Shown: positions 6,835 to 61,142 of the stretch, piece by piece | How the letters are laid out: the number at the start of each line of letters is the position of its first letter | Position numbering within the stretch: position 1 is the stretch's first letter | Assembly: GCF_014284335.1 (NCBI RefSeq) | Contig: NZ_JACOGF010000014.1 | Coordinates: 1-64,000 of the forward strand | Length of the DNA stretch: 64,000 nucleotides | Origin: Undibacterium hunanense | Lineage (GTDB): Bacteria; Pseudomonadota; Gammaproteobacteria; Burkholderiales; Burkholderiaceae_D | Reading direction: 5' to 3' | The notes under the pieces: generated by a model | Told to the model about the DNA's origin: nothing | Databases searched by the model: none | What the model saw: only the letters and a program-made list of their open reading frames with translations | Position numbers and translations under genes: made by a program

Positions 6835-7641
6835 GTGCAACAGCCTGCCTTGCTGGTGGATGCTGTAGGCGCCATCCATACCCCTTGTACGACGCCACCA
6901 CGTATCGTCAGCCTGGTGCCGTCGATTACCGAATTGCTGTGTGACCTTGGCTTGTCATCCAGCCTGGTTGGACGCACCGGTTTTTGTATTCATCCTAAAG
7001 AAGTGGTTGCCTCCATACCCAAGATCGGCGGTACCAAGGATGTGAATATCGACAAGATACGCAAACTGGCACCCACGCACCTGATCGTCAATATCGATGA
7101 AAACGAAAAGCCGGTCGTGGATGCCCTGGCGGATTTCATCCCGCACATCGTCGTTACCCATCCGCTGGTTCCACGTGACAATCTGGCGTTATATCAGTTG
7201 CTGGGCAATATTTTTGGCGCGCAGGCAAAGGCCTTGCAGCTATGCCAGCGTTTTGAAGAGGCTTATGCGTCGCTGCCTGCATTACCTGAGCTGTCCGATC
7301 AGACTGTCAGACGCAAGCTGGTGTATTGCATCTGGCAAGACCCGTGGATGACAGTCAGTTCTGCTACCTATATCTCAGCCATGCTGGCACTGATAGGCTG
7401 GCAAACCTGGTCGCCACCAGACAGTACAGCGCGTTACCCGGCTTTTCGCTGGAATGACGAGATGCTGCGCGAGATTGACGGCGTACTCTTGTCCAGTGAA
7501 CCCTATCGTTTTACCGAAACCCATGTAGATGCGCTGGAAAAACAGCTGGGCCTGCCGGTGCAACTGGTGGATGGCGAAATGCTGTCCTGGTACGGCAGCC
7601 GTGCAATAGCTGGCCTGCATTATCTGAAGCAACTGGCCTGA
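6835..7641 (+). CDS. BtuF-like cobalamin/metal-complex binding protein
   Basis: The product has the helical-backbone metal receptor fold of BtuF-type proteins. Landmarks are PRIVSLVPSITELLCDLGL near its start, VGRTGFCIHP, and KIGGTKDVNIDKIRKLAPTH. There is no signal peptide from either plausible start, so it may act in the cytoplasm or be annotated too short. GTG 6835 gives 268 residues and avoids the upstream SDR; ATG 6778 would overlap the SDR gene by 53 bases. Neither has a clear ribosome binding site. A TonB receptor follows, but no cobalamin riboswitch is visible. Confidence 0.75.
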   Translation: MQQPALLVDAVGAIHTPCTTPPRIVSLVPSITELLCDLGLSSSLVGRTGFCIHPKEVVASIPKIGGTKDVNIDKIRKLAPTHLIVNIDENEKPVVDALADFIPHIVVTHPLVPRDNLALYQLLGNIFGAQAKALQLCQRFEEAYASLPALPELSDQTVRRKLVYCIWQDPWMTVSSATYISAMLALIGWQTWSPPDSTARYPAFRWNDEMLREIDGVLLSSEPYRFTETHVDALEKQLGLPVQLVDGEMLSWYGSRAIAGLHYLKQLA

Positions 7642-55016: not shown

Positions 55017-56246
55017 TTACTCCTCAGGATCTTGCTGTGACCGGGCCAGGCGCAAGCCAGCCAGTTGCCAGCGCGCCGTTGCCGGGAAAAAATTGCGATA
55101 AGTGTTGCGGCTATGCCCGGCAGGGGTGAAGGCAGATGCACCGCGCAAGACATATTGATTGACCATGAATTTGCCATTGTATTCGCCGACGGCACCGGTC
55201 GCTGGCACAAAGCCGGGGTAGGGGCTGTAACTGCTGCTGGTCCATTGCCAGCAAGAATCAAATAGCTGGCTCAACTGACCTTCTGTTTCATGCTGGCTGG
55301 CTGCGTATTCCCATTCGGCTTCGGTCGGCAAGCGCGCATCGGCCCAGACTGCATAGGCACTGGCTTCAAAATAAGACAGATGGCTGACAGGCTGTTGTAA
55401 TTTCAGGGCTTGCAGGCCATGCAGGGTAAATTCCTGCCAGCCCTGTGGATCTGGACGCCAATACAGTGGATGCTGCAAGTCATGCTGACGCACCCAGTCC
55501 CAGCCCTCGGCCAGCCATAGTGTCGGCTTGCGGTAACCGCCATCATCTATAAAGGCCAGGTATTCGGCATTGCTGATGAGGCGTGTGGCGAGTTGAAAGG
55601 GCTCCAGGAACTGGCGGTGGCGCGGGCTTTCATTGTCAAAACAAAAGTCTTTACCCAGGTGGCCTATCTCACACAGGCTGGCATCATACTGTTGCCAGGC
55701 GAGCGCCGCACATGTTGTCGCCAAAGGATGCAGATCGGCGGGGCTGGCAGGGTTGGCAGGACTGACATATAGGGCTGGATAAAGTGGATTACAGGACAGC
55801 AGGTGCTTGATATCTGTCAGCATCAATTCCTGGTGTTGCTGTTCATGTTGCAGGCCCAGTTCCAGCAATTGAAAAAAATACGGATCTTTGACGCTGTCGC
55901 AACATCGCCGTATGCGTGCATCGACCTGCTGCCGGTAAGCCAATACGGTATCCAGTGCTGGCCGGGTCAGCAAGCCGCGCTGCGGGCGTGGATGTTTGTC
56001 GCCTACGCCGTTGTAATAAGAATTGAACAGGACACGAAAATCCTGGTGAAAAGGCTGGAAATGTTCTTCGAACTGTTCCAGGATAAAGGTTTCAAAAAAC
56101 CAGGTGGTATGTGCCAGATGCCATTTGATGGGGCTGGCATCGGGCATGGACTGGGCCATGCAATCTTCTGCCGACAGAGGGGCTGCAATCGCTACCGAGC
56201 GTTGACGTACCTGTTGCCAGCGATTAATGATGTCCGCATATTGCAT
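55017..56246 (-). CDS. egtB: Ergothioneine sulfoxide synthase EgtB
   Basis: EgtB is an iron enzyme that joins a thiol compound to hercynine. The 409-residue product has an N-terminal DinB-like bundle with the iron-binding HX3HXE (HEQQHQE, about residue 130) and WHLAHTTWFFE, and a C-terminal FGE-sulfatase domain (from about 190, with RLPTEAEWEYAA). The start at 56246 follows AGGAG; codons up to 56285 overlap the end of egtD. It is second in egtD-egtB-DUF427. Confidence 0.93.
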   Translation of the reverse strand: MQYADIINRWQQVRQRSVAIAAPLSAEDCMAQSMPDASPIKWHLAHTTWFFETFILEQFEEHFQPFHQDFRVLFNSYYNGVGDKHPRPQRGLLTRPALDTVLAYRQQVDARIRRCCDSVKDPYFFQLLELGLQHEQQHQELMLTDIKHLLSCNPLYPALYVSPANPASPADLHPLATTCAALAWQQYDASLCEIGHLGKDFCFDNESPRHRQFLEPFQLATRLISNAEYLAFIDDGGYRKPTLWLAEGWDWVRQHDLQHPLYWRPDPQGWQEFTLHGLQALKLQQPVSHLSYFEASAYAVWADARLPTEAEWEYAASQHETEGQLSQLFDSCWQWTSSSYSPYPGFVPATGAVGEYNGKFMVNQYVLRGASAFTPAGHSRNTYRNFFPATARWQLAGLRLARSQQDPEE

Positions 56247-56268
56247 GCGATGATTCTCCTGGTCTGGC

Positions 56269-57237
56269 TCAGGCAGCTTTGGCATACATCACGGCAAACC
56301 ACGCATTGGCATCGGTCCAGTGGCTGACATGTGAAAAGCCTGCTTCCGTCAGCAAGTTTACAAAACTGTCTATGCTGTATTTATAACTGTTTTCGGTATG
56401 GATGTGTTCATCCTTGATGAAATTCCGGTAGCCGCCTGGCCAGCTGACGCGGATGTTTTCCCTGGCCCGTAAATGCATTTCTATGCGCGACTTCTCGGTG
56501 TTGAAATACGCTTCGTGCTGCCACTGACGCACATCAAAATCGCTATGCAGCAAATGATTGATATGGCGCAGCAAATTCAGGTTGAATGCTGCCGTAACAC
56601 CCAGGGTATCGGCATAGGCATCATCCAGCAAGGTCTTGTCCTTGATCAGGTCTACCCCGATCAGAATGCCGCCACTGCTGTCGCAGGATGCGCGCAAATG
56701 CCGCAGGAAAGTCAGCGCCTGGTGCGGCTCAAAATTGCCTATGGATGATCCAGGGAAAAAAAACAGACGCTTGTCATTGCGTACTTCTACCGGCAGTTGC
56801 CAGTCTTGCGACAAATCCAGCCCCAGGGCCGTCATTTCTATGTGCGGGAAGCGCTGTTGCAGGCGCCGCACGGCATCCTGCAAATGGTGAACAGAAATAT
56901 CGATGGGCACATACTGGTCTGGATGCAGGACCGGGAACAGGCGCGCCGCCTTGGCGCAGTTACCGGCACCCAGGTCAATCAGGCTGCCACCGGAACCAAT
57001 GACATTGGTCATGTCAGCCATATGGGTCGTAAAGATTTCTGCTTCGGTACGGGTTGGATAATATTCTGGCAGTACGCAAATGGCTTCAAACAATACCGAA
57101 CCGACCGCATCATAAAAATACTTGGGCGACGTGTGTGCTGCATCTGCCAGCAGGCCGTTTTCCAGTTCGTGGATGATGTGTGCAGGTGTCGTGCGTTCTG
57201 CGCTTGCAGTGCTGTTCAGACGGTTTGATTCGGGCAT
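56269..57237 (-). CDS. egtD: L-histidine N-alpha-methyltransferase EgtD
   Basis: EgtD trimethylates histidine to hercynine with SAM, the first step of ergothioneine synthesis. The 322-residue product has YPTRTEAEIF, LIDLGAGNCAKAARLF (SAM site), FFPGSSIGNFEP, and a C-terminal VSHWTDANAWFAVMYAKA. The start at 57237 gives the usual family length; an upstream open frame to 57456 lacks family features. It begins the operon. Confidence 0.94.
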   Translation of the reverse strand: MPESNRLNSTASAERTTPAHIIHELENGLLADAAHTSPKYFYDAVGSVLFEAICVLPEYYPTRTEAEIFTTHMADMTNVIGSGGSLIDLGAGNCAKAARLFPVLHPDQYVPIDISVHHLQDAVRRLQQRFPHIEMTALGLDLSQDWQLPVEVRNDKRLFFFPGSSIGNFEPHQALTFLRHLRASCDSSGGILIGVDLIKDKTLLDDAYADTLGVTAAFNLNLLRHINHLLHSDFDVRQWQHEAYFNTEKSRIEMHLRARENIRVSWPGGYRNFIKDEHIHTENSYKYSIDSFVNLLTEAGFSHVSHWTDANAWFAVMYAKAA

Positions 57238-57866
57238 GGTCGTCGGGGCAAAAAATTCAATCGGCAGGCCGGTTGGGCCTGTTCTTGATACTTGGTAATG
57301 CCTTTCCAATTCAGCGCCGTTTATGCGGGGCTTGCCATAGAGCAGGGTTGCAGACTCAAGGTGGGGCTTAGTGTACAACTTATCGGATAAAAAATCCTGA
57401 GGGGTTATTGGACTGAATACCCAGCATGTTTTTGGCTGAAATCTTTGGGGCTGCATGTCAGGGCAGCACGCAAATCAGATGTAGCAATCAATTTAAAAGA
57501 CACTGTTTTACTGACAATCTATTACCTGTCGATGAATTTGATCTTGTCAGAAGCCTGGTGGCGCATCTGTTCGTTATCGTACGCTCCATGTGCCGAAATA
57601 AGACTGCATTGCAGTCACAAAATCGACGGTACTCGTCAGCTTGCCATCACATCTGACGATTGCTTCCTTTTTGAAAGCCAGGACACCGCATTCTAGTTAT
57701 TGAAGCGAAAATATGGCTGTTATTGCAATAATGAATGGCAAAAAAGTTGCAATTAAATATTGCCACAAAGTGTTGTTTTAATGAAACTTAGCATATGTAT
57801 AGTTATAATATATAAAGACATTTTATGTTAGCCTCAAAGTCCTTAAAACTTACTCAGAGGATAACT
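57238..57866. other. Long AT-rich intergenic region
   Basis: This 629-base gap should hold the egtD promoter (left part) and that of the small-peptide gene (right part). From about 57700 it becomes strongly AT-rich: 57721-57780 has 16 G+C of 60 and 57781-57840 has 14 of 60. It contains the palindrome TTATTGCAATAA (about 57719-57730) and a TATAAT-like motif near 57804. Frames of 76-83 codons at 57426-57696 lack support. Confidence 0.5.
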
Positions 57867-58031
57867 ATGTTCCGTAAATCAATTTTCACATTTGTCTTTT
57901 TGGCATGTGCTTCTGCTGCGTTTGCTACTGATACCCCACCTGTATCCCCGGAAATGCAATGTATCGCTGCTTGCGTCGCCCTCTTGGGATGGGAAGACGC
58001 TACTAATTGCATTATGATTTGTACAGACTAA
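57867..58031 (+). CDS. Secreted twin-CX3C micro-protein, unknown
   Basis: The 54-residue precursor has a signal peptide (residues 1-20, ending AAFA). The 34-residue mature peptide has four cysteines as CX3C-X11-CX3C (Cys 32, 36, 48, 52): QCIAAC, then CIMIC. It contains five acidic and no basic residues. ATG 57867 follows GAGGA; an in-frame ATG at 57825 would give a poor leader. The pattern suggests a disulfide-closed helical hairpin or a metal-binding peptide. It heads the receptor cluster. I recognise no family. Confidence 0.78.
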   Translation: MFRKSIFTFVFLACASAAFATDTPPVSPEMQCIAACVALLGWEDATNCIMICTD

Positions 58032-58032
58032 T

Positions 58033-58099
58033 TTCCCCATAAGATGAGTATTTGTTGATGTAATGCAATGTAAGTGTCTTGTTATCTCATCATGGGGAA
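58033..58099 (+). promoter_or_regulatory. Long inverted repeat overlapping a terminator (possible attenuator)
   Basis: TTCCCCATAAGATGAG (58033-58048) can pair with CTCATCATGGGGAA (58086-58099), leaving a 37-base loop. The 3' arm also pairs with TGATGAG at 58108-58114 to form the terminator below. The two structures exclude each other. The position, just after the first peptide stop, could set the ratio of peptide to downstream genes. Confidence 0.55.
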
Positions 58100-58125
58100 G
58101 TTTCCTGTGATGAGATTATTTTTTT
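58086..58125 (+). terminator. Intrinsic terminator between the two small exported genes
   Basis: CTCATCA (58086-58092) and TGATGAG (58108-58114) form a stem with an inner GGAA-GT-TTCC stem, followed by ATTATTTTTTT (58115-58125). Confidence 0.75.
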
Positions 58126-58164
58126 GGGTAAACTAATAACGAATTATTAAGAAAAAATTTAATC

Positions 58165-58464
58165 GTGCAAATTAAAAAAATCCAATTACTGATTCTGACT
58201 ACAGTTTTGCTAGCTACTACAACTAGCTGGGCGCAAAAAATGGTTCCATCTACGCGAAGTGAATGTACAAGAAAATGTAATTCCACTTTATTAAAGACTC
58301 AAAAATTTGGTGGCGAACTGACTAAAATCCGAGACGCTATTGCAAAAGAAACAGATCCGGAGAAACTCAAAGAACTGCGTCAAAAAGAAAAAGAAGAACT
58401 TGAACGTGCAACAGAAAAGGTAGCTGATGCCTGCGAAGAGATTTGTCAACATAATCCGGATTAA
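58165..58464 (+). CDS. Secreted twin-CX3C helical protein, unknown
   Basis: The 99-residue precursor starts at GTG with a signal peptide (about residues 1-23, ending SWAQ). The mature protein has CX3C near its start (ECTRKC, Cys 34/38) and near its end (ACEEIC, Cys 90/94), joined by about 51 residues of highly charged helix with a break at ETDPEKL. This resembles the twin-CX3C helical hairpins of small Tim proteins in layout only. No good ribosome binding site precedes GTG. It lies 80 bases before the receptor gene. Confidence 0.75.
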   Translation: MQIKKIQLLILTTVLLATTTSWAQKMVPSTRSECTRKCNSTLLKTQKFGGELTKIRDAIAKETDPEKLKELRQKEKEELERATEKVADACEEICQHNPD

Positions 58465-58506
58465 CAGTATTCCGTTTTATAAACTTAACTACATCTTGTG
58501 GAGACA

Positions 58507-58522
58507 AATTGGTCAGGCTCTG
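58507..58522 (+). repeat. 16-bp direct repeat, left copy
   Basis: AATTGGTCAGGCTCTG occurs here, just before the TonB receptor start, and again at 61177-61192 just after the glutaredoxin gene. The pair brackets the receptor-glutaredoxin unit. The core GTCAGGCTCTGAC is self-complementary in the right copy. Confidence 0.7.
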
Positions 58523-58544
58523 TGCAAGAGAAGACTGTATTTTT

Positions 58545-60734
58545 ATGAATAAAAAAATTAATGCAGCTTGTAGTCTTTTACTGGCCTGCGGATCAGTATG
58601 GGCGCAGGATGGCAAGCAGTCTGCACCTCCAGCTCAACAACCACAACAGGTTATCGTTAACGGCGCTCAAACCGACATTGAAGCTGCACGGGATTTTGTT
58701 GCAGGCAAGCTGATTATTGGCCGCAAGCAGATCGAACAGAGTGGCTTGCAAAATGTGTCAGAAATCCTCAAGCGGGAACCTGCCATTACGATAGGTAAAG
58801 ATGGTCGTCTCAGTTTGCTGGGCTTGCCCGGTTATACCCAGATTTTGCTTGATGGCCAACAACCCATGGGTAAGGCACCGTTGGAGCTGGATCTTACCCA
58901 GGTAGATAAAATCGAGATTATCAAATCGGCGACTGCGGAAACCGGCCCTTTCGGTATCGCTGGGACGATTAATGTGATCAGCCGCAAGATTGAACGCAAA
59001 ACCCTCCAGCAAGTTCGTCTGGGGGTTACCGGGGTAGCAGGAGAATATGGCGGCAACGGATCGTGGATGTTCAATCAGTTCAGCCCGGATAGCCCCTGGA
59101 GTCTGAATCTGAATGTCAGCGCCAGGAATGGTCGCAGCCCGCGTTCAGGTAATGATCAACAAATACTGATCAGCCAGGCAGGTTTTCAGCCGCAATTTAA
59201 TGCCCAGCGCAACTCGATAAGAACGGATGAATTTTTAACGCTGACAAGTGAACTCGCGTATAAATTCGGCACCGGGAATAATTTCAGCGTTAAACCGGAT
59301 TATGGTCAGATAAAACAGGACCAAACCAGAACAGAACAAAGAAACTGGAACGATGGACGATTGCAACAGACCAATCAACGCGGAACCAGCAGCCTGAGCG
59401 GATACGCATTGCCGTTTAGCTGGAATTACGATGCAGGAGATGCGGGTCAACTGGATGCCAGTTTGCGTTACAACCAGATGCAACTCAGCGGCGATACTCT
59501 GCGTATTGACCAGGGCACGGCAATTGGTTATGCGATTCGCCGGCAGCAACAAATTGACGATCAGGCCAGTTATATCCTGTTGTTGAATTACCGTAACAGC
59601 TTTAGTGGCGGGCATACTGTCAAATCGGGTTTGCAATGGACGCATGGTAGCCATGATATCAATCGCGCTTATTGGCTTAATGACCAGCCAGATACCAGTC
59701 TTTCCGCATTAAGCAAGCAAAGCCTGGCCAAGGAAGATAAATTGCGCCTCTTTGTCCAGGATGACTGGCGTTTGAATAAAACACTTGCACTCAATGGTGG
59801 GGTTTCAGTCGAAGATCAGGTATTGAAATTTAATGAAGGGGGCATCCGGAGCCAGTCGAATTTCCGGGTCTGGTCACCTTCGTTTCATTTGGCAAAAAAA
59901 TTGGAAGGTGATCAGAAGCGTCAGTTCCGCCTCTCTTTAGCACGCAGCTTCAAGGCACCTGGCTACGACCAATTGTTGTTGCAGCCGGTAATAGATCCTT
60001 TTGCACCTTGTGTTACTCCGGCGGGTTGTGGCAGCAACACGATTGATACTGCCGATAGCATGGGTAATCCGCATCTGCAACCAGAAAGGGCACTGGCTTT
60101 CAACCTGAGTTATGAACATGGCCTGAGTAGTGATAGCCAAATCAGCTTCGAGGCCTACTCACGCCAGATTGAAAAGAAAATTGGCAACGAAATATTGTTG
60201 ACCACGGTGCCTTGGGCAACGGTGCCACGTTATGTGCAAAGACCGGCGAATCTTGGGAGTGCATCCATTTACGGTGTAAGTGTCGACTGGCGCGTTGCTT
60301 TGACCGATATATCGAAAACAGCTCCCAAAGTGGATTTGCGCGGCAGCTTTGGATTTGCACATTCAGTGTTGAGCGATGTACCAGGACCAGATAATCATCT
60401 GGATGGCCAGTTGCCGTGGCGCGCCAAAATAGGCATGTCGTACAAACTTGAAAACCTGCCAGTCAAAGTTGATGTGGATGCCAACTGGCTTCCCGCTGAC
60501 TGGGTACGGAATAATCTGACGCAGAGAACTTATGAGTCACGACAAAGAACGCTGACAGCGAACGCAGTCTGGACAGTGAACCCTGATCTGCGGGTGATTA
60601 TGAATCTTGACAATATGTTTGCACCGCAGTCGGAAACGATACGCGAATACATACTGCCTGGTGCCAGCGTACAGACGCGTTCGCAGAACTCTTCATTTAC
60701 ACGTGTCGGTCTGCGACTGGAACTAAAACTTTAA
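58545..60734 (+). CDS. TonB-dependent outer membrane receptor of peptide-linked cluster
   Basis: The 729-residue precursor has a signal peptide (about residues 1-21, ending SVWAQ). The plug domain has EILKREPAITIGKDG, LLGLPGYTQILLDGQQP, and IEIIKSATAETGPFGIAGTI. The barrel runs to VGLRLELKL. An extracellular-loop-like stretch has Cys residues in APCVTPAGCGS. The ligand is not known. ATG 58545 is chosen; the codons up to 58509 overlap a repeat. It follows the two exported CX3C proteins and precedes a glutaredoxin. Confidence 0.9.
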   Translation: MNKKINAACSLLLACGSVWAQDGKQSAPPAQQPQQVIVNGAQTDIEAARDFVAGKLIIGRKQIEQSGLQNVSEILKREPAITIGKDGRLSLLGLPGYTQILLDGQQPMGKAPLELDLTQVDKIEIIKSATAETGPFGIAGTINVISRKIERKTLQQVRLGVTGVAGEYGGNGSWMFNQFSPDSPWSLNLNVSARNGRSPRSGNDQQILISQAGFQPQFNAQRNSIRTDEFLTLTSELAYKFGTGNNFSVKPDYGQIKQDQTRTEQRNWNDGRLQQTNQRGTSSLSGYALPFSWNYDAGDAGQLDASLRYNQMQLSGDTLRIDQGTAIGYAIRRQQQIDDQASYILLLNYRNSFSGGHTVKSGLQWTHGSHDINRAYWLNDQPDTSLSALSKQSLAKEDKLRLFVQDDWRLNKTLALNGGVSVEDQVLKFNEGGIRSQSNFRVWSPSFHLAKKLEGDQKRQFRLSLARSFKAPGYDQLLLQPVIDPFAPCVTPAGCGSNTIDTADSMGNPHLQPERALAFNLSYEHGLSSDSQISFEAYSRQIEKKIGNEILLTTVPWATVPRYVQRPANLGSASIYGVSVDWRVALTDISKTAPKVDLRGSFGFAHSVLSDVPGPDNHLDGQLPWRAKIGMSYKLENLPVKVDVDANWLPADWVRNNLTQRTYESRQRTLTANAVWTVNPDLRVIMNLDNMFAPQSETIREYILPGASVQTRSQNSSFTRVGLRLELKL

Positions 60735-60743
60735 GGACGATCA

Positions 60744-61142
60744 ATGCAAGCGCGCTATCGAAAATATCTCAAAGACGGTCTTATACTCATGGCAGTTGCC
60801 GCTTTGGCGATTGTTTTAGGGACTAATATTCCACGCTGGTACAAGCTGTTGAATGGCCCATTCAAAAATGGCGATTACTCGGCACATATAAAATCCTTAC
60901 CTTATAAAGTGACACTTTACGGTACCTCAACTTGCCCGCATTGCCAAAGTGCGCGTATGTATCTCAAACAGGCGGGTATCGAATTCAATGATGTCATGAT
61001 TGATAAATCAGGCGATGCGGCGAAGTTGTATCAGCAACTCGGTGAAAAAGCTGTACCGATATTGGTCAGCGAGAAGAAAATGCTCGTAGGATTTAGTCCG
61101 GGGCGATATGAGGAAATGTTGAAGCTTGCCAGCATAAAATAG
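60744..61142 (+). CDS. Membrane-anchored periplasmic glutaredoxin-like protein
   Basis: The 132-residue protein has a basic N-terminus (RYRKYLK), one transmembrane helix (about residues 12-28) and a glutaredoxin/thioredoxin fold with CPHC at 64-67 and the cis-Pro in KAVPILV near 102. By the positive-inside rule the domain faces the periplasm. AAGGA overlaps the receptor stop codon, so the pair is translationally coupled. It could reduce or isomerise disulfides in the CX3C proteins or their receptor (inference). Confidence 0.85.
   Translation: MQARYRKYLKDGLILMAVAALAIVLGTNIPRWYKLLNGPFKNGDYSAHIKSLPYKVTLYGTSTCPHCQSARMYLKQAGIEFNDVMIDKSGDAAKLYQQLGEKAVPILVSEKKMLVGFSPGRYEEMLKLASIK

Follow-up and report, generated by a model that had tools for sequence, protein, structure and literature searches.

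We analysed a 64,000-nucleotide stretch of DNA from Undibacterium hunanense (contig NZ_JACOGF010000014.1, positions 1 to 64,000 of the forward strand; hereafter the window) and found at positions 57867 to 61142 a four-gene cassette that recurs in related bacteria. It encodes two small exported proteins with two CX3C cysteine pairs each (small54 and small99), a TonB-dependent receptor of a distinct clade, and a membrane-anchored glutaredoxin (the redoxin). The cassette, its recurrence, the cysteine pairing logic and the purifying selection on the peptide families were established from sequence or prediction; gene linkage and the hairpin fold are well supported on this basis. We regard the module as a new kind of gene set whose receptor and redoxin are new members of known folds. 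The reading that we favour, tentatively and at somewhat less than an even chance, is that the redoxin would be the dedicated disulfide enzyme of the hairpins and the receptor their outer-membrane partner, most likely for uptake of the hairpin or its cargo.

All four genes lie on the forward strand. The first, small54 (57867..58031), encodes a 54-residue precursor with a signal peptide and a mature part with the frame C-X3-C-X11-C-X3-C and a net charge of -5. Directly 3' of it stands a stem-loop of 15 pairs followed by a T-run (58084..58116, forward strand; fold z -5.43). The small99 gene (58165..58464) starts with GTG and encodes a 99-residue precursor with a signal peptide and the frame C-X3-C-X51-C-X3-C. 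The receptor gene (58545..60734; first in-frame start TTG at 58509) encodes a plug and a barrel, and the last gene (60744..61142) encodes an NrdH/YruB-like glutaredoxin of 132 residues with one N-terminal hydrophobic segment and a CPHC motif. These open reading frames (ORFs) were confirmed as an earlier sequence-only reading of the window had described them. A strict scan with a crude script, covering ORFs of 38-140 residues with a signal peptide and two CX3C pairs, matched only small54 and small99 in the 64-kb window. This detector overlooks some true members, for example small99 of one related locus (L029) and copies without the second and third cysteines.

The sequence-only reading had proposed the four genes as a candidate system, and they proved to be a real cassette: homologues of the small proteins with conserved cysteines lie beside this receptor clade in further species and at another place in the window genome. 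Related loci (designated L with a number) were picked through matches to one of the profiles, and some are the same place fetched twice; the counts of small99 cysteines, palindromic peptides and receptor linkage were deduplicated by sequence. Profile and tblastn searches revealed the second locus in the same genome (L021), with small54, receptor and small99. Homologues of small54 were found in L021, L022, L023, L032, L039 and L047. The small99 profile matched 28/392 family genomes at E <= 0.01, in 5 of 44 genera, two of the 28 matches being weak. A search of named genomes gave 27 loci in Undibacterium, Duganella, Massilia, Pseudoduganella, Janthinobacterium, Rugamonas, Mitsuaria, Roseateles and bins, the last comprising a Rhodoferax bin, a Burkholderiales bin and one weak match in an Odoribacter bin. 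All four genes were found together in the window and in L023 (U. umbellatum), L032 (U. seohonense) and L047 (D. levis). Gene order differs between loci, small99 lying 5' of the receptor in the window and L023 and 3' of it in L021, L025, L043 and L050; the linkage has therefore been kept through rearrangement. L028 and L029 seem to represent one chromosomal site in two species: receptor, redoxin and small99 are all present in one of them, and small99 alone in the other.

The receptor profile gave a bimodal distribution in 147 relatives: among the matches listed, ten places scored above 1100 bits, three about 690 and the rest about 425 or less, and a small99 gene adjoined all ten top-scoring places listed. 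Clade receptors were defined by a score of at least 790 bits (n = 29 after identical sequences were dropped), and linkage by a distance of at most 1.5 kb on the same strand. A hairpin gene stood beside 27 of these 29 distinct receptors (exceptions, L079 and L080), with small99 beside 24, small54 beside 9 and the redoxin beside 7. The small proteins thus do keep company with this receptor type, as the sequence-only reading supposed. Among weaker-scoring receptors, a hairpin gene accompanied 6/10 at 480-790 bits and 3/4 at 300-480 bits, and a receptor adjoined 26 of 36 distinct small99 genes. Twenty ordinary receptors served as controls, drawn from the genome of the window and from five related genomes with the cassette. 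None had small99, small54 or redoxin in the fetched stretch, and the one twin-CX3C ORF among them was located within the receptor gene itself. A chance neighbourhood of unrelated short ORFs, which has nothing but the small size of the ORFs in its favour, is contradicted by the recurrence, the conserved cysteines and the control receptors, and we practically discount it. These results suggested that receptor and hairpins very probably form a functional pair.

Altered copies were also observed. In L093 (Rugamonas aquatica; 7100-7414), a single ORF directly 3' of a wider-clade receptor joins the redoxin anchor and first half, ending just past CXXC, to a CX3C hairpin; it is a fusion or deletion product. 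Beside more distant receptors lie secreted proteins in which an N-terminal CX3C hairpin is combined with a long tail of low complexity (L059:4314-4652, L060:4010-4417 and L058:2213-2506). Cassette receptor or redoxin genes are split into several frames in L052/L098 (Duganella lactea), L095 (D. margarita) and L121, an apparent decay of copies. Weak matches to a generic receptor profile lie next to hairpin genes at L102:93-2666 and L120:3883-6480, where a receptor of another clade may accompany the hairpins.

The receptor contains two Pfam domains above their curated cut-offs, PF07715 (34.4 bits; cut-off 23.9) and PF00593 (93.6 bits; cut-off 27). In NCBIfam it reached no model of a receptor with known ligand, every listed model scoring far below its cut-off (best TIGR01782, 66.6 of 310 bits; B12 model TIGR01779, 53.6 of 599.7). 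The best solved receptor by sequence was Cir, with a match confined to the plug, and the clade has just distant solved relatives. A fold search returned generic receptors, HasR and TbpA among them, at large root-mean-square deviation; the query model had a predicted local distance difference test score (pLDDT) of 70 with a low-confidence plug, and generic matches of such a model allow no ligand call.

The cysteines of small99, on whose conservation the sequence-only reading depended, were retained across the family. The first and fourth (C1 and C4) were present in 36/36 distinct sequences, and the second and third (C2 and C3) in 33/36, being missing together in the other three, which we take to be two lineages (L030/L031 and L032). 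The invariance of C1 and C4, taken with the joint loss of C2 and C3, implies that the clamps would be C1-C4 and C2-C3 disulfides across a hairpin. The spacer between the CX3C pairs was 51-56 residues in the homologues. Structure prediction of the small protein alone, another proposed check, gave such a hairpin: the AlphaFold2 model of small99 from a 14-row alignment had helices at 31-45, 50-61 and 65-93 (mean pLDDT 82, predicted template modelling score 0.56, pLDDT of at least 90 at 54/99 residues), and the predicted fold of small99 is a long hairpin of helices in which the two cysteine pairs sit close to the open end. Gene pairs of the peptide families had a median dN/dS of 0.18 (121 non-independent pairs), and pooled dN/dS was lower in the signal peptide (0.12) than in the mature part (0.24), again from non-independent pairs. 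The peptide families are under purifying selection and evolve as coding sequence. Translation of the small genes, which the sequence-only reading presupposed, was thereby supported indirectly, through family members, the window copies not being among the pairs listed.

No Pfam or NCBIfam match above cut-off was obtained for 12 small proteins, small54 and small99 included. There was no relative in the PDB by sequence at a meaningful E-value, and no structure matched the hairpin at E <= 0.001 in a fold search. The literature search, which covered excerpts of open-licence PubMed Central papers, returned no paper on this system. A lipoprotein nature of small54 was rejected: an L-A-C stretch was noticed on inspection in the signal peptides of the window, L021, L022 and L023, and it is not a conserved lipobox because L032, L039 and L047 do not have it.

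The sequence-only reading had also considered that the small proteins might carry metals or metallophores, which they would pass to the receptor. In favour of this idea, metal complexes are common cargo of TonB receptors, and reduced cysteine pairs could bind metal. Small Tims do bind zinc when reduced, according to the excerpt of PMC3759932 consulted. Against carriage, His and Met make up just 1.2% and 2.7% of 98 short hairpins, the joint loss of C2 and C3 and the palindromic cysteine spacing described below indicate disulfides, and the best Fur-like match upstream of the cassette (11 of 19) is typical of the window. The carrier proposal was not supported, and we consider it very unlikely. 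Metal regulation of the cassette was rejected too, no Fur-like box upstream rising above the window background.

The redoxin matched Pfam Glutaredoxin with 38.1 bits (cut-off 22.9), with CXXC and cis-Pro, and C64, C67, V104, P105 and G116 were invariant in a 19-row alignment of its family. The equivalog cut-offs for NrdH/YruB were not reached (TIGR02196, 59.2 of 88.55; TIGR02194, 40.6 of 85.75), and the closest solved structures were the glutaredoxins 7c10, 3ic4 and 7c12, followed by NrdH proteins. A basic N-terminus precedes the hydrophobic segment; the Grx domain is therefore probably on the periplasmic side.

Other membrane redoxins adjoin different small secreted cysteine peptides, encoded by single genes or tandem arrays; L100 contains 11 peptides by the detector together with two redoxins, and L102 contains 8 peptides. 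Around 57 distinct membrane redoxins, up to 2 kb away and on either strand, we collected 115 distinct ORFs that encode a signal peptide and four or more cysteines, spurious ORFs included. The cysteine spacing was exactly palindromic in 69 of the 115, and 59 of these 69 had the three-rung frame CX3CX6C-Xn-CX6CX3C. After shuffling of the mature sequences, palindromic spacing occurred in a mean of 0.97 and a maximum of 4 ORFs over 200 rounds, versus the 69 observed. An exactly palindromic secreted peptide lay within 2 kb of 34 of the 57 redoxins. For 20 of the remaining 23, inspection, which is not a test, found a related cysteine peptide at up to about 3 kb; these fell outside the strict rule through an extra cysteine within or behind the signal peptide, a CXXC variant, a position on the other side of a receptor, a detector miss or greater distance. 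Three membrane redoxins (L111, L115 and L146) had no related cysteine peptide within about 3 kb on inspection. Other glutaredoxin-like ORFs passed the palindromic rule in 4/27 cases, all of them truncated, fused or frameshifted family members (L027, L096 and, twice, L121). A looser count (same strand, within 2.5 kb, not deduplicated) found a twin-CX3C ORF near 46/62 membrane redoxins versus 7/27 others; four of the seven were the same broken family members, and the other three (L127, L150 and L153) are distant and look spurious. In 26 hand-chosen, aligned three-rung peptides, the six cysteines were the invariant positions and the signal peptides were strongly alike. These results suggested that redoxin and hairpins are highly likely to be a functional pair. 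Of the earlier claim that the glutaredoxin manages the disulfides of the small proteins, the tie to secreted cysteine hairpins by gene linkage stood, and we infer the action itself.

One redoxin subtype (L024, L069, L143, L148 and L149) occurs with a secreted peptide of the different frame CXXC-X6-C ... CXXC, whose gene is transcribed divergently. Selenocysteine was considered for an internal TGA reported in several redoxin matches of one genus and was rejected, since the TGA is the natural end of the domain.

Another possibility is that the hairpins are antagonistic, alpha-hairpinin-like peptides directed against competitors or eukaryotes, which the receptor recaptures or by which it is exploited. 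Small54 satisfies the 4C alpha-hairpinin motif CX3C-X4-20-CX3C as given in the excerpted text of PMC11591084, the genes form tandem arrays with signal peptides more conserved than the mature parts, and Cir, the closest solved receptor through its plug, is a colicin receptor. However, the 98 short hairpins have a median net charge of -2, with 86% at or below zero, which disfavours cationic antimicrobial action; selection is purifying overall, and inspection of the neighbours recognised no immunity gene or dedicated exporter. We regard antagonism as quite unlikely.

Membrane redoxins scoring at least 100 bits were found in 36/245 family genomes, representing six of 44 genera, with one further genus at 98.5 bits; they occurred in 0/228 class-level genomes other than that of the window (best, 96.7 bits). 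Three-rung peptides were detected at E <= 0.001 in 30/225 family genomes. At class level, 2/210 genomes of one genus gave weak matches with no redoxin nearby. Strong three-rung matches (E <= 1e-10) occurred in 27 of the 225 genomes examined, all of them among the 36 redoxin-bearing genomes. Orphan singlets to triplets of three-rung hairpin genes lie at L182-L192 and L196; the fetched stretch contains no redoxin there, and the same genomes have one elsewhere.

Neighbour clustering of 50 membrane-redoxin loci was empty at first, and checking revealed that loci of different genera have flanking genes in common. Genes for an FAD-linked oxidase and for a cobalamin adenosyltransferase were each found in 18/179 loci (Pfam and tblastn; some loci fetched twice). 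These two genes border the receptor cassettes in U. pigrum and U. umbellatum (L022/L073 and L023/L076) as well as redoxin/array loci in at least one other genus (L103, L105-L110, L124 and L155-L159), and a DXP synthase gene flanks seven loci. All three genes are absent beside the window cassette. A role as conserved partners was rejected in favour of a shared chromosomal site, and the flanking genes probably mark such a position; the hairpin loci may also have a cobalamin link. The shared flanking genes therefore suggest that the receptor cassette and the redoxin/array could be alternative forms of one ancestral locus. Divergent from the cassette, the ergothioneine genes egtB and egtD lie on the reverse strand at 55017-57456; they are probably bystanders, because they were not noticed in the related loci listed.

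Stable folds (z -2.65 or lower) lay 3' of a peptide gene in 11/11 hand-chosen places, and none was found 3' of small99 in the two places tested. In a separate survey of 11 gaps, a stem with a T-run occurred in 4 (window, L022, L023 and L062). Against a universal stem, the 42-nucleotide gap after small54 in L081 folds weakly (-7.0 kcal/mol). Promoter and terminator scan counts were not above shuffles, and the 15-pair stem alone is notable. It may be terminator-like or stabilise messenger RNA (mRNA), and small54 could be made in excess; more generally, we read the stems as possible partial terminators or mRNA ends favouring the peptide. The stretch 58036-58098 can also form an alternative stem, which would be incompatible with the terminator-like one, and the gap after small54 might therefore be an attenuator.

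According to the proposed mechanism, the constant part of the module would be a small exported alpha-helical hairpin clamped by disulfide rungs, two in the window proteins and three in the array peptides. The hairpins would be exported through Sec and oxidised in the periplasm, where the inner-membrane-anchored NrdH-type redoxin, its CXXC facing the periplasm, would form, proof-read or open the clamps. The TonB receptor would serve as their outer-membrane partner and most likely import the hairpin, either by itself or carrying cargo; the redoxin could then open the clamp. A study by Eser in 2009, cited in PMC10344953, is said to have found that disulfides can be formed by a glutaredoxin once it is exported to the periplasm. 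In the excerpt consulted, PMC10344953 itself proposes that DsbA of Escherichia coli is backed up by a glutaredoxin-like protein yet to be identified. The sequence-only reading had named receptor partners among several roles for the small proteins, and this is the branch that we favour; gene linkage to the receptor clade supports it, and the partnership, the uptake by the receptor and the periplasmic side of the redoxin we infer. Uptake in particular, as the nature of the receptor-hairpin pairing, is possible, with our confidence a little below even.

Several observations weigh against uptake with a dedicated redoxin. Neither receptor nor redoxin is obligatory at the locus, because 10/36 distinct small99 genes have no receptor beside them and a redoxin stands beside just 7/29 receptors. 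Outside the receptor cassettes, a receptor-like ORF is absent from the fetched stretch at 43/50 membrane-redoxin loci. Another 18 peptide loci were fetched, with a peptide visible to the detector in 15, and none of these 18 stretches contains a redoxin or receptor-like ORF. No known periplasmic electron partner for the redoxin was found in these loci, and the model provides no outward route across the outer membrane for a hairpin exported by Sec.

The hairpins might instead remain periplasmic as small-Tim-like receptor partners or chaperones that deliver the barrel or gate the plug and are oxidised by the redoxin. Twin-CX3C hairpins are here linked to a beta-barrel gene, small Tims, which are chaperones with twin CX3C motifs, have a dedicated relay for their oxidation (excerpt of PMC3759932), and no exporter was noticed in the listed loci, among which no family-based exporter search was made. 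The 43 receptor-free redoxin loci count against this explanation as well, the arrays of up to 11 different detected hairpins fit variable ligands better, and no small Tim fold appeared among the best 50 matches listed; we consider it unlikely. A stronger form, in which a membrane-tethered redoxin would oxidise periplasmic twin-CX3C hairpins as an independently evolved bacterial counterpart of the MIA/small-Tim system, some hairpins escorting or gating the receptor and others diversified into arrays, seems improbable.

The favoured reading, with the redoxin as disulfide enzyme and the receptor as uptake partner, would carry some consequences. Short-ORF families are easily missed by annotation, and here one bacterial family holds paralogue-rich exported disulfide hairpins with their own membrane redoxin and, in one lineage, their own TonB receptor. 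A redoxin that does serve the hairpins would give the periplasm a dedicated disulfide pathway in addition to Dsb, and a receptor that does import the hairpin would amount to a system for recapturing peptides. Separate versions exist (hairpins with receptor, hairpins with redoxin, and all four genes), which makes both questions testable by deletion.

HasA-HasR and TbpB-TbpA are pairs of a receptor and a secreted carrier, and the cassette is like them in encoding a receptor with a small exported protein. It differs in that its small proteins have no matched family and its receptor clade is only distantly related to solved receptors. Alpha-hairpinins are described in the excerpt of PMC11591084 by the 4C motif given above and the 6C motif CX3CX3C-X4-20-CX3CX3C. 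Like the plant proteins, small54 would be a helix-loop-helix with two disulfides, and its spacer (X11) fits the 4C spacing. However, small54 and small99 are bacterial, linked to redoxin and receptor and without a Pfam match above cut-off, the hairpins are mostly acidic, the array frame CX3CX6C-Xn-CX6CX3C is not the 6C motif, and the small99 spacer of 51-56 lies outside 4-20. With the small Tims and the MIA relay, as presented in the excerpt of PMC3759932, the module shares twin-CX3C hairpins, an oxidising compartment between two membranes and a link to a redox enzyme, and here also to a beta-barrel. It differs from them in having no sequence or fold match to Tim8/9/10/13 among the matches listed, in a redoxin that is glutaredoxin/NrdH-like and in the Sec-type signal peptides of the small proteins. 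Because no homology or fold match to alpha-hairpinins or small Tims was found, small54 would resemble them at most in its working. The closest likeness of the redoxin is to NrdH/YruB-type glutaredoxins, with which it shares the CXXC, the cis-Pro VP and the C-terminal GF motif and whose TIGR02196 and NrdH models it matches below the curated cut-offs; it is set apart from them by its N-terminal membrane anchor and its genomic partnership with exported hairpins.

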